Origin: Archaeoglobaceae archaeon
GTDB taxonomy: Archaea > Halobacteriota > Archaeoglobi > Archaeoglobales > Archaeoglobaceae
DNA: 40,470 nt
Direction of reading: 5' to 3'
Assembly (NCBI GenBank): GCA_026986375.1
Contig: JALSOQ010000015.1
Location: 1 to 40,470, forward strand
Part shown: piece by piece, positions 4,386 to 35,189 of the stretch
Layout: each line of letters begins with the position of its first letter
How positions within the stretch are numbered: position 1 is the first letter of the stretch
Made by a program: the position numbers and the translations under genes
Notes under the pieces: model-generated
The model's database searches: none
What the model saw: the letters and a program-made list of their open reading frames with translations, nothing else
What the model was told of the DNA's origin: nothing

Positions 4386-5387
4386 GTGAAAAGGTGGCTG
4401 TGTCTTGTAGTGATCTTAGGGTTGATACTGATCGGGTGCTCCCAGAAGCAAGCTACGGAAATTCCAAAGAACGAGAAGGGGAAATACGTCGTCACGATTT
4501 ACACCGGCTCGGGTCCGGGAAGCGTTTACTTCGCTTTAGGATCCATGTATGCCAAGATACTGAACGAGAAGAGCAAGCTCATAGAGGCTAAGGCGGTTAC
4601 GAGCGGGGCGAGCGTTGCAAACGCCAAAGCGATAGGAAAGAAGGAAGCTCTTGTGGCGTTGATTCAGAACGACGTTACCTACTACGCCTGGAACGGACTC
4701 TATCAGTTCAAGGGGCATCCTATAAAAGTAATGAGAGCCATAGGAACGCTTTATCCGGAGGCGGTTCAGATAGTCGTTAGGGCGGACAGCGACATAAGGA
4801 CTCTCCAAGACTTGAAGGGTAAGAGAGTTGTGGTGGGTGCTGCGGGGAGCGGTTGTGCCGCTACTGCGGAGAGAATACTGAAGGCTGCTGGCGTATGGAA
4901 AGACATAGAGCCGATATACCAGACGTTCAGCGAAGCTTCTCAGAGCTTGGTTCTCGGACAGGTGGATGCCGAATTCACAGTTATAGCCTATCCCGCTCCG
5001 GCGATAGAGCAGATAGCCGTAAAGACTCCCGTAAGGCTGATACCGATTCCGGACGATGTTGTAGAGAAGCTCCACAAGGAGGGATACCCGTTCTACGTCA
5101 AGGTGGTCATTCCTAAGGGGACTTACAACGGAATGGATCAGGACGTTCAGACTGTGGCGGTGAGATCTACGTTGGTGGTCCACAAGGATCTGCCGGAAGA
5201 TGTGGTTTACGAGATGACGAAGATCCTATACGAAAACATCGACGAGCTCGCGAAGGCTCATAGAGTTGCCAAGCAGATAGACATTCACAAGGCGTTCGAA
5301 GGTCTGATGATACCGCTCCATCCGGGAGCGGTCAAATACTACGAGGAGCACGGAATAAAGGTTCCCGAAAACTTGATTCCGAAGTGA
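4386..5387 (+). CDS. TAXI-family TRAP transporter solute-binding lipoprotein
   Basis: This is the extracytoplasmic receptor of a TRAP transporter of the TAXI (TRAP-associated extracytoplasmic immunogenic) type, 333 residues. It starts with a lipoprotein signal: basic MKR, a hydrophobic stretch, and the lipobox LIGC with the likely lipidated Cys18. Next come a TAXI-like glycine-rich N-terminus (GSGPGSVYFALGSMYAKI), the conserved LIQNDVTYYAWNG segment and LKGKRVVVGAAGSGCAATA. The GTG start at 4386 is supported by GAGGTG five bases before it. It is followed by a DUF1850 gene and the fused permease, the usual TAXI operon. Ligand unknown; family members bind organic acids such as glutamate or other carboxylates. 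Confidence 0.94.
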   Translation: MKRWLCLVVILGLILIGCSQKQATEIPKNEKGKYVVTIYTGSGPGSVYFALGSMYAKILNEKSKLIEAKAVTSGASVANAKAIGKKEALVALIQNDVTYYAWNGLYQFKGHPIKVMRAIGTLYPEAVQIVVRADSDIRTLQDLKGKRVVVGAAGSGCAATAERILKAAGVWKDIEPIYQTFSEASQSLVLGQVDAEFTVIAYPAPAIEQIAVKTPVRLIPIPDDVVEKLHKEGYPFYVKVVIPKGTYNGMDQDVQTVAVRSTLVVHKDLPEDVVYEMTKILYENIDELAKAHRVAKQIDIHKAFEGLMIPLHPGAVKYYEEHGIKVPENLIPK

Positions 5388-31827: not shown

Positions 31828-32233
31828 ATGTATCCCCTCGCGCACATCGGTATAGCTCTTCTCCTAGGAAAAATTCTTCAAAAACGTTTGAAGCTCAAAG
31901 ACTTTCGTCTCATCGCTTTTGCCAGATTTGATCGACAAACCGCTTACGATTGTTGGTATAGGTCTGGGAAGGTTCGTCGCCCACTCCCTTTTATTCACCA
32001 CAGTTACATTTACAGTGAGCAGGGATTTGGGATTCGGATGCACGATGCATCTGATCCTCGACAGAATTTGGGAAGAGCCAAAAGTTCTTTTCTTTCCATT
32101 CTTAGGAATGCTCCCTTCCATACACCACACGATATACGATTTCCTCAGGATTCTGCTCACGAACAGAACCGTCCAAGCTTGGGAGTTGATAGGGCTGATC
32201 TGCTTGGCTATTCACAGCAGGGTTAAATCCTAA
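31828..32233 (+). pseudogene. YdjM/DUF457-like membrane hydrolase, frameshifted
   Basis: The first part starts MYPLAHIGIALLLGKILQKR in one frame, and the rest runs in the next frame as SLLPDLIDKPLTIVGIGLGRFVAHSLLF through HLILDRIWEEP to the stop at 32233. Together they form one protein of about 134 residues of the YdjM-like (PF04307) type, whose histidines and aspartates in HIG, PDLIDKP, RFVAH and HLILDR would hold metal. The shift lies between 31890 and 31915; removing one T from TTT at 31903-31905 restores KDFVSSLLPDL. Either a true mutation or a sequence error. It is divergent from pheT and its end overlaps 32230 by four bases. Confidence 0.72.
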
Positions 32234-32739
32234 TCTTTTATCGAATAAATCTCGACGTTCATACTCTTCGCTTCCCGCAAAACGTCCTCCCTAACGTCAC
32301 CCAAAACTCCGAAAACTATTCTAATTCTCCTTCCCGTCGTTATCGGGGAAGAAGTTATTTCGTTCCACAGCTTTCTTATCTTCCTGAGCTTCTTCAGCAT
32401 TCTCCTTTGATCGGTCTCGATTTCTAAGAAAATTATTTCTTCGTCCTTTATTATTACCGCATCTGGCCTGTAGCCGATCTTCGATATTCCGGTATGCTCT
32501 GCTTCGAGGTAGCAGGTTCCGCCATCCTTCGTGAGCTCTTCTACAAGCCTTACTTTTGCACGGTAGTGGTCGAATCCCTCCGAACCCTTCTTCCTTAGGC
32601 TCTCAACCTCTTTTACCGAAATCTTCAACTCCTCGATCGCCCTTTCTACCGACTTCAACTTTACAGCTTCCTTTACCCTTTCCAACCTCGCGATTATTTC
32701 TTCGATCTCCTTCCTCACTTCCCCAAGATCTCCCTGCAT
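32230..32739 (-). CDS. Unknown coiled-coil protein overlapping mutS, possible nuclease-like domain
   Basis: The 169-residue protein has a long charged N-terminal helix (about 1-60, heptad-like Leu/Ile/Val spacing) and a C-terminal alpha/beta part. There, YRPDAVIIKDEEIIFLEIETD has the layout of a PD-(D/E)xK-like core, but with ExE where lysine is usual (BamHI has such an ExE). This is only a pattern reading. The gene overlaps the end of mutS by 25 bases from the ATG at 32739; a GTG at 32718 would give the classical four-base GTGA overlap and is a good alternative start. Translation is coupled to mutS, so a role in mismatch processing is possible but unproven. Confidence 0.7.
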   Translation of the reverse strand: MQGDLGEVRKEIEEIIARLERVKEAVKLKSVERAIEELKISVKEVESLRKKGSEGFDHYRAKVRLVEELTKDGGTCYLEAEHTGISKIGYRPDAVIIKDEEIIFLEIETDQRRMLKKLRKIRKLWNEITSSPITTGRRIRIVFGVLGDVREDVLREAKSMNVEIYSIKD

Positions 32740-35189
32740 CTTCTCACTATCCTGTCGAGCTCCACCAAAGCCTGAATAGGCGTAAGGTTGACGACGTCGA
32801 TTTTGGAAACATCCTCAAGGAACCTCTCCACATCCTCGTCGATTTCAGAAACGTCCGTTTCAAGCAACTCAAAAGCCCTATCTATAACCTCCCTCGGCAG
32901 ATCCGCCATGCTCGCAACCTTTATCCCGTAGCTCTCCTTACTCGCACCCCTCCTTATCTTCCTGTCAAACTCAATCTTGCCGTTTTCTTCCTTTATACCG
33001 AAGTGGTAGTTCTTAACCCCATTGAGCTCGTTCTCCAAACTCGAAAGCTCGTGATAGTGTGTCGCGAAGAGGGTTTTGGCTCCTATCCTTTCGTGTATGA
33101 ACTCCACTATCGCCCTCGCCAGACAAAGCCCGTCCTTGGTGCTCGTGCTCTTTCCGACCTCATCGAGCAGTATCAGGCTTCTCTTGGTCGCGTTCCTCAG
33201 TATTTTGGCTATCTCGTCCATCTCAACCATGAACGTGCTGTATCCTCTCGTTATGTCGTCTATCGCCCCGATTCTCGTGAAGATTCTATCCACAACTCCG
33301 ATAACCGCGTAGCTTGCCGGAACGAAGCTTCCGATCTGGGCCATTATGGTTATCAAAGCCACCTGCCTAAGGTAGGTCGATTTTCCGGCCATGTTCGGGC
33401 CGGTTATTATCAAAATTCTACTTCCTTCGTCGAGGGTGACATCGTTCGGAACGAACTTCGTCGCCAGCTCGACGGTCGGATGCCTGCCGTCCCTTATTAT
33501 TATCGCGTATCCGTCGTTCACCTTCGGACGGGTGTAGTTGTAAAGAACCGCCACTTCCGCCAAGCTTGCAATAACGTCGAGCTCCGCTATTCTGTTGGCG
33601 CACTCCCTAATTCTATCCGAATGCCTCGCAACCTCATTTCTAACGCTTTCGAATATCTCGTATTCGAGCGACTTTATCCTCTCTTCACAAGCCAAAATCT
33701 TCTCCTCCCTCTCCTCAAGCTCCGGAATCGTATATCTTTCCGCATTAACGAGCGTCTGCTTCCTCTTGTAGTGCTTCGGAACTAACCTAACCTTCGACTT
33801 GGGAACCTCTATGTAGTAGCCGAAAACGGTGTTGTATCCCACTTTAAGGCTGTCTATTCCCGTCTTCCTCCTCTCCCTCTCCTCAATCATTCTTATGAAG
33901 CTCTCGTGCTCCTCTTTAATTCTCCTAAGTCTATCGAGTTCCTCGCTGAACCCCTCCTTTATTATCCCCCCTTCCTTAACGGTTAAAGGTGGATTATCGA
34001 CTATCGCGGATTCTATCAGCCTGCAGACGTCCTCAAGCGTATCCAGTCCGCCGACTATTCTCTGCAACATTCTGGATGAGAACCTGAACTCCCTTATCTT
34101 CGAAACCGCCCTTAAGGAGTTCTTCAACGCCACCAAATCCCTCGCGTTCGCGGATCTGAAGTCTATCCTGCTCACTATCCTCTCCAAATCGTAAACATTT
34201 CTCAGAATCTCCCTTATCGTCTGCCTGAGAAAAGATTTCTCCTTAAGCTCCTCTACCGCATCGAGCCTCTCCTCTATTTCGTTCACGTCCAGCAGAGGTC
34301 TCTGAAGCCATCTCTTCAGCATCCTACTCCCCATGGCCGTCACGGTTCTGTCCAGAACCTCTATCAGCGTCCCCCTCCTGCTCCCGTCCACGACGTTCTT
34401 GAATATCTCCAAATTTCTGAGCGTCGTCGTGTCCAAGACCATGTAATCCTGAGTCCTATACTTCCGAATTCTGAAGTGCAAGGCTTTAGATATCAGAGCG
34501 TCCTTCACGTAGCTCAAAACCGCCCCACATGCCCTAATCGACGCTCTATTTAGATCCTTGGCTTCAGAAATCGACTCCAAAAGCTTTAAGGCGTTTTTTA
34601 AATCGAACTTATCGCTCTCCACCCTGTTCACGGCCTTGACTATCTTCTTAAGCTCCTCCGCAAAATCCTCATCGAAATCCTCCGGAATTATGCACTCGAC
34701 CGGATTGAACTTCAGAATCTCCGCAATAACCTCATCCTTAGTTTTAACCGTCGTTGTGAAGAACTCCCCGGTCGAAACGTCCAAGAACGCTATTCCGAAT
34801 TCTTCGTCTTCAACCAGAGCCATGAGGTAGTTGTTCTCCTTGGTCAGAAGCTCCTCCTCTATCAGAGTTCCGGGAGTTATTACCCTTATTACCTCCCTCC
34901 TGACCAAACCCTTCGCCTTCGACGGATCTTCAACCTGCTCGCATATGGCGACCTTGTAACCCTTCTCGATCAGCCTCTTTATGTATGGATAAACGGCGTG
35001 ATGCGGAACTCCCGCCATCAGGTGCCTCTTGTCCCTCGAAGTCAGAACTATTCCCAGTTCCTTCGAAGCAATCTTGGCGTCTTCGTCGAAGAGCTCGTAG
35101 AAGTCCCCGACCCTAAAGAAGAGTAACGCGTCCTTGAACCTCTCCTTTATTCTGTAATACTGTTCCATCATCGGAGTCAGCTTGCCCAT
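32715..35189 (-). CDS. mutS: DNA mismatch repair protein MutS (MutS1 type)
   Basis: An 824-residue mismatch-binding ATPase. The N-terminal mismatch-recognition domain has FFRVGDFYELF with the FxE motif (Phe30-Tyr31-Glu32), characteristic of MutS1. Connector, lever and clamp domains follow. The ABC ATPase has Walker A GPNMAGKST, TRGYSTFMVEM, Walker B LILLDEVGKSTSTKDG and ATHYHEL. The last shows GKSTST where most MutS have GRGTST. A TATA box (about 35214-35225) sits at leaderless distance from the ATG. No MutL is in the window; the next gene is the unknown protein at 32230. MutS1 is uncommon among hyperthermophilic archaea. Confidence 0.95.
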   Translation of the reverse strand: MGKLTPMMEQYYRIKERFKDALLFFRVGDFYELFDEDAKIASKELGIVLTSRDKRHLMAGVPHHAVYPYIKRLIEKGYKVAICEQVEDPSKAKGLVRREVIRVITPGTLIEEELLTKENNYLMALVEDEEFGIAFLDVSTGEFFTTTVKTKDEVIAEILKFNPVECIIPEDFDEDFAEELKKIVKAVNRVESDKFDLKNALKLLESISEAKDLNRASIRACGAVLSYVKDALISKALHFRIRKYRTQDYMVLDTTTLRNLEIFKNVVDGSRRGTLIEVLDRTVTAMGSRMLKRWLQRPLLDVNEIEERLDAVEELKEKSFLRQTIREILRNVYDLERIVSRIDFRSANARDLVALKNSLRAVSKIREFRFSSRMLQRIVGGLDTLEDVCRLIESAIVDNPPLTVKEGGIIKEGFSEELDRLRRIKEEHESFIRMIEERERRKTGIDSLKVGYNTVFGYYIEVPKSKVRLVPKHYKRKQTLVNAERYTIPELEEREEKILACEERIKSLEYEIFESVRNEVARHSDRIRECANRIAELDVIASLAEVAVLYNYTRPKVNDGYAIIIRDGRHPTVELATKFVPNDVTLDEGSRILIITGPNMAGKSTYLRQVALITIMAQIGSFVPASYAVIGVVDRIFTRIGAIDDITRGYSTFMVEMDEIAKILRNATKRSLILLDEVGKSTSTKDGLCLARAIVEFIHERIGAKTLFATHYHELSSLENELNGVKNYHFGIKEENGKIEFDRKIRRGASKESYGIKVASMADLPREVIDRAFELLETDVSEIDEDVERFLEDVSKIDVVNLTPIQALVELDRIVRRCREILGK

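Follow-up and report, generated by a model that had tools for sequence, protein, structure and literature searches.

The gene directly behind mutS in the analysed stretch of DNA (the window; 40,470 nucleotides of a contig from an Archaeoglobaceae archaeon) is best read as encoding a dedicated endonuclease subunit of MutS1 with a PD-(D/E)xK fold, which would incise DNA in place of MutL or MutH; we put this reading at roughly two chances in three. The incision made elsewhere by MutL or MutH most likely falls to this protein, here called the partner, for which we infer both catalysis and mismatch dependence; in some heat-loving archaea that have MutS but no MutL, it would probably supply the cutting enzyme that had been missing, within a mismatch-repair pair not described before. 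A sequence-only reading had suggested that the gene could encode a nuclease or nicking partner of MutS, and this suggestion was borne out on every point that could be computed. Two of the results below, the natural MutS-nuclease fusions and the invariant set of D93, E106, E108 and K117, go beyond it. The features are collected in Table 1.

Table 1. Position of the partner gene, of mutS1 and of their predicted parts in the window.
Feature	Position	Strand	Basis
MutS-associated protein, predicted PD-(D/E)xK (ExE variant), 169 aa, ATG start	32230..32739	-	Translation, orthologues, fold, active-site pattern
mutS1, 824 aa, domains I-V complete, obligate partner	32715..35189	-	Pfam MutS_I to MutS_V; TIGR01070
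Overlap of mutS end and partner start, 25 nt	32715..32739	-	Overlap kept in 9/9 genomes
N-terminal helical hairpin (residues 1-47), a candidate for docking to MutS or for dimerisation	32599..32739	-	AlphaFold2; docking presumed
Predicted nuclease core, residues 54-169	32233..32580	-	Invariant residues (11/11 sequences); AlphaFold2 element order
Core residues D93, E106, E108, K117; also E54	32461-32463 (D93), 32422-32424 (E106), 32416-32418 (E108), 32389-32391 (K117)	-	

The open reading frame that had been described as overlapping mutS was confirmed at the position and with the overlap listed. A whole-genome search of 99 relatives recovered orthologues sharing 38-64% identity at the same place behind mutS in eight other genomes, and all nine carriers are Archaeoglobaceae, among them the cultivated type strains Archaeoglobus profundus AV18 (G025) and Ferroglobus placidus (G014). 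In every one of the nine the partner starts within the last codons of mutS, the overlap being 25 nt in the genus of the window and 22 nt in two other genera. The orthologues behind mutS, together with dN/dS values of 0.05-0.14 that indicate purifying selection, rule out a chance open reading frame. The genes flanking the pair vary among the three genera and the pair itself is kept.

Several features of the surroundings were also recorded. The window copy of the partner ends about 8-11 residues before those of close relatives, whose tail is RLL-like (window 32221-32232). On the plus strand between pheT and the partner (31828-32233) there is what appears to be a single membrane-protein gene divided between two frames, with MYPLAHIGIALLLGK... 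in the first and ...LTIVGIGLGRFVAHSLLF... in the second; it may be a broken gene or reflect an error in sequencing, and its end overlaps the stop of the partner by 4 nt. In genome G003 (L049 8550-10046) the pair is immediately followed by an OLD-like ATPase gene and one small gene; its sister genome G002 (L048) has neither at this place.

An AlphaFold2 model of the partner (mean pLDDT 82, from the 11-sequence alignment) begins with two helices at residues 2-26 and 29-47, in line with the coiled-coil start noted earlier. The remainder is predicted as a helix (56-69), strands (75-77, 94-97 and 101-108), a helix (111-129), a strand (138-146), a helix (151-159) and a strand (162-167), which gives the alpha-beta-beta-beta-alpha-beta order of the PD-(D/E)xK core. 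D93 is placed just ahead of the second strand and E106 and E108 on the third, again as in that core. Foldseek comparison with the PDB returned mostly nucleases of the PD-(D/E)xK superfamily (at modest E-values, 5e-4 to 2e-2; TM ~0.4), including R2 endonuclease, Cdn1/Card1/Can2, the nickase Nt.BspD6I, EndoMS, Hjc, Bax1 and AF1548, and the matches in a viral library were of the same sort; in our reading, the TM values are partly due to the helical hairpin, which these structures lack. The model and the structural matches thus agree with the restriction-like fold for which a check had been set beforehand, and the partner very probably has this fold, as judged from the prediction. Profile matches to Pfam were below the curated cut-offs, both for PDDEXK_10 (best E 1.7e-4, seven of 11 members) and for the AHJR-like REase family (nine of 11 members), and no nuclease was found when the PDB was searched by sequence, with either the protein or the profile. 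A weak match in genome G067 turned out to be the nuclease at the C-terminal end of a helicase subunit from a restriction system, and it supports the fold only loosely.

Conservation was examined in an alignment which is shallow, comprising 11 sequences (nine split proteins and the domains of the two fusions described below) that reach down to 30% identity. The YRPDAVIIKDEEIIFLEIETD block, to which the sequence-only reading had drawn attention, is present at residues 90-110, and the ExE variant of the PD-(D/E)xK core that it had proposed was upheld by the alignment, where D93, E106, E108 and K117 are invariant in 11/11 sequences; D110, within the same block, is not conserved in the fusions. Also invariant in all 11 are L19, A34, E54, H58, L65, E79, S86, G89, R91, P92, P132 and E163. 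Among the 30 acidic gap-free columns only six are invariant, and these include E54, D93, E106 and E108. The conserved motif has the form D ... ExE; the canonical lysine is absent and K117, invariant, lies in the next helix. Nuclease activity is less certain because the third catalytic position is Glu and not Lys, although BamHI is a working enzyme with ExE, and it is likely that the partner is an active nuclease.

The MutS protein next to it is a MutS1 with nothing missing. All five Pfam domains, I to V, are matched, and the score against the mutS1 equivalog TIGR01070 is 977 bits (cut-off 641.7), so that both the domains and the curated score place it in MutS1; it is also the only MutS_V protein of the genome. 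Its other neighbours in the window are the housekeeping genes pheT, nicotinate phosphoribosyltransferase and tmcA. As observations on related proteins, MutS proteins that are partnered by MutL in several archaeal families have, beyond domain V, a YTQ(L/M)xLxD motif that looks similar to a clamp-binding motif and is not present in MutS of the partner-carrying lineage. Many Archaeoglobaceae without MutS1 (for example G005, G007, G026 and G027) have an open reading frame of about 550 aa with a weak MutS_V match, a MutS-like ATPase without domain I. Neither the genus of the window nor that of A. profundus has this ATPase, while G014 and G024 have both proteins.

MutL had been noted as missing from the window, and the same holds for the whole genome (99.94% complete), in which there was no match to PF01119 and none above cut-off to PF08676. 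No MutL was found in the 55 Archaeoglobaceae genomes of the 99-genome search, and MutL_C gave no match above cut-off in any of the ten that have a full-length MutS. NucS/EndoMS was found in one MutS carrier (G003) and was not found in the window genome or in the eight remaining carriers. Neither of the known routes for mismatch incision was thus found in the window genome. MutS was present in 19/19 MutL genomes of the 99-genome search. Across 393 genomes of the phylum, MutS outside the Archaeoglobaceae is nearly always accompanied by MutL; 286 of these genomes gave a match to MutL and 296 a match to MutS domain I. Comparison of the two lists from the 393 genomes left G126, G354 and nine genomes of family f7 as non-Archaeoglobaceae with MutS and without MutL, most of them incomplete. 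No such partner or nuclease gene was recognised beside MutS in G126 (L080) and G354 (L081), both of which are rather complete.

With full-length MutS defined by a MutS_V match at E < 1e-30, ten of the 55 Archaeoglobaceae genomes carry one (G000, the window genome, to G004, G014, G015, G024, G025 and G032). The partner lies directly behind mutS in nine of these ten and in none of the 45 others. The tenth is G032 (72% complete), where the contig of 4666 bases breaks off within mutS, the MutS match reaching to base 4661, and the assembly therefore does not include the gene that follows. Co-occurrence with mutS in archaea lacking MutL, a check that had also been set beforehand, therefore held with no exception wherever it could be checked. 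The odds of this distribution would be about 1.6e-9 if the genomes were independent, which they are not as all carriers come from a few lineages, and the figure is illustrative.

A profile built from the nine partner proteins revealed the same domain at the C-terminal end of two MutS reading frames, which come from another family of the phylum and measure, from stop to stop, 1133 aa in G170 and 1054 aa in G322. These were the only strong fusion matches among the 58 genomes of their class, a weak profile match in G182 being a separate small protein. The fusions lack the TPxxAL-type motif otherwise present at the MutS C-terminus and have the domain in its place, with helices of the partner type between MutS and nuclease in the AlphaFold2 model. 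The modelled domain of the G322 fusion (pLDDT 84) has the same element order as the partner; it gave no significant Foldseek match in the PDB. G170 has no match to MutL, and G322 (79% complete, 6% contaminated) has MutL as well as the fusion. Each of the two also has a canonical mutS alongside the fusion, a broken remnant with stops in G170 (L077, G170:C67) and a second, frame-broken gene in G322 (L076, G322:C7).

Phylogenetic analysis of 30 MutS proteins united the MutS of both fusions and the ten Archaeoglobaceae MutS in one clade (100/99), which is apart from the MutL-partnered MutS, and the canonical MutS from the fusions' own family is placed elsewhere. The fusions and the tree together indicate that MutS and nuclease belong to a single lineage which occurs in both split and fused form, and the partnership is almost certainly dedicated to MutS.

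Incision in known MutL systems is carried out by MutL or MutH. The MutL of Methanosaeta, for example, nicks DNA (PMC7690668). In the proposed pair, a mismatch would be recognised by MutS, which has the full mismatch-recognition and ATPase domains, and the co-translated partner would be held close to the C-terminus of MutS by its N-terminal helical hairpin. This point of attachment is suggested by the fusions, which are joined there, and from it follows the hairpin's candidate role in docking or dimerisation. Homology of the hairpin to the C-terminal helix-turn-helix of MutS was also considered and is unsupported, the profile comparison giving 1% probability over 10 columns. MutS bound to a mismatch would then position the nuclease, and the DNA would be cut nearby by a putative metal site of D93, E106 and E108 (plus E54 and K117). 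Such a cut would replace the MutL/MutH incision of other organisms and the EndoMS/NucS incision of many archaea, and it is rather probable that the partner makes the mismatch incision in place of MutL. We infer in the same way the physical complex and a role in the repair of replication errors; since a MutS dimer would bear two nuclease domains, the product could be either a nick or a double-strand break.

Other readings of the pair were weighed against this one. The nuclease could be active and bound to MutS and yet serve anti-recombination or the resolution of branched intermediates instead of replication-error repair. The junction resolvase Hjc is among the Foldseek neighbours, and the reliance of hyperthermophiles on recombination has been stressed in a review (PMC4471258). 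Activity in recombination has been reported for MutS2-Smr (PMC12292046). A role of this kind has been proposed for that protein, and it has also come under discussion for plant MSH1. The MutS concerned is, however, a MutS1 complete with domain I, which serves mismatch recognition, and not of the MutS2 type, and we regard this role as unlikely. Slightly less probable again is a domain that is catalytically dead, or nearly so, and instead binds DNA for MutS or plays a structural part in it, for instance as a replacement for its C-terminal oligomerisation part. ExE in place of ExK, the weak profile scores and the position of the domain in the fusions, where the TPxxAL-type motif is missing, would all suit such a domain, but D93, E106, E108, E54 and K117 are invariant down to 30% identity and most acidic positions vary.

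Two further explanations fare much worse. The pair could be a device for defence or genome policing, directed at foreign DNA and not at the cell's own mismatches, as PD-(D/E)xK domains are common in defence and MutS has faint similarities to LmuB and PtuA in PADLOC. Yet the PADLOC defence families gave no convincing match, the MutS score is that of a mutS1 and the window neighbours are housekeeping genes. Nor was any relative of the partner found in collections of plasmids, phages and viral contigs, and a defensive role is very improbable. That the gene is an unrelated neighbour, beside mutS by chance or by common inheritance, is the least credible of all; the carriers are confined to a few lineages and their counts are not independent, but the overlap is conserved, the pair is kept amid changing neighbourhoods, co-occurrence with MutS is strict and two fusions exist, so that this explanation is strongly disfavoured. 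The preferred reading remains a nuclease subunit that incises for MutS1.

Some archaea lack both MutS-MutL and NucS/EndoMS, from which reviews have inferred undiscovered mismatch repair (PMC5290159; PMC7690668), and the absence of MutSL in hyperthermophilic archaea has been called an open puzzle in one review (PMC4471258). A concrete candidate for this missing repair is offered here by a MutS equipped with a restriction-type nuclease of its own. On balance we favour a third archaeal mismatch-repair route, consisting of MutS1 with its own PD-(D/E)xK nuclease, split or fused, and using neither MutL nor NucS; if this is true, MutL can be bypassed by a nuclease attached directly to MutS. As the pair is present in cultivated type strains (A. 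profundus AV18 and Ferroglobus placidus), a two-protein biochemical test would be straightforward.

A MutS-PD-(D/E)xK pair in archaea was not found in a literature search of openly accessible journal papers, and MutS goes unmentioned in the published genome description of Archaeoglobus profundus, although the pair is present there (G025). Among known systems, MutH is the PD-(D/E)xK nicking enzyme of mismatch repair and shares this type of nuclease with the partner; it acts through MutL and GATC methylation, whereas the window genome is without MutL, and the MutH family profiles of Pfam and NCBIfam did not match the partner. EndoMS/NucS is likewise a PD-(D/E)xK nuclease for archaeal mismatches, and EndoMS is among the fold matches of the partner, but NucS itself recognises mismatches without MutS; NucS_C (PF01939) had no match to the partner at E<5 and none in the window genome (G000). 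The MutL domains (GHKL ATPase/DNA_mis_repair and MutL_C) also had no match in the partner.

The closer parallels are MutS proteins that bear a nuclease of their own. MutS7, or octocoral mtMutS, has a C-terminal HNH endonuclease and has been proposed to be self-contained (PMC3166940), and plant-type MSH1 has a C-terminal GIY-YIG domain that is thought to cut at mismatches (PMC12292046). Both resemble the present pair in linking a C-terminal nuclease to MutS. They differ in their folds, HNH and GIY-YIG as opposed to PD-(D/E)xK, in that the MutS7 nuclease is fused to MutS and the nuclease here is in most cases encoded by an overlapping gene of its own, and in their range, which is epsilonproteobacteria, giant viruses and octocoral mitochondria for MutS7 and eukaryotic organelles, some viruses and gammaproteobacteria for MSH1. 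Neither the partner nor the fusions had a Pfam match to HNH or GIY-YIG, which sets them apart from both families. For a restriction-like domain joined to a MutS1, the nearest precedent in the literature is a single sequence from Cyanophora, with a faint Mrr_cat-like C-terminal extension whose activity is doubted by its authors because catalytic residues are missing (PMC12292046). That protein is of an unrelated lineage and the similarity is weak, whereas here the residues are conserved in 11 sequences, and the archaeal pair would, if the reading is true, be the PD-(D/E)xK counterpart of HNH-MutS7 and GIY-YIG-MSH1.
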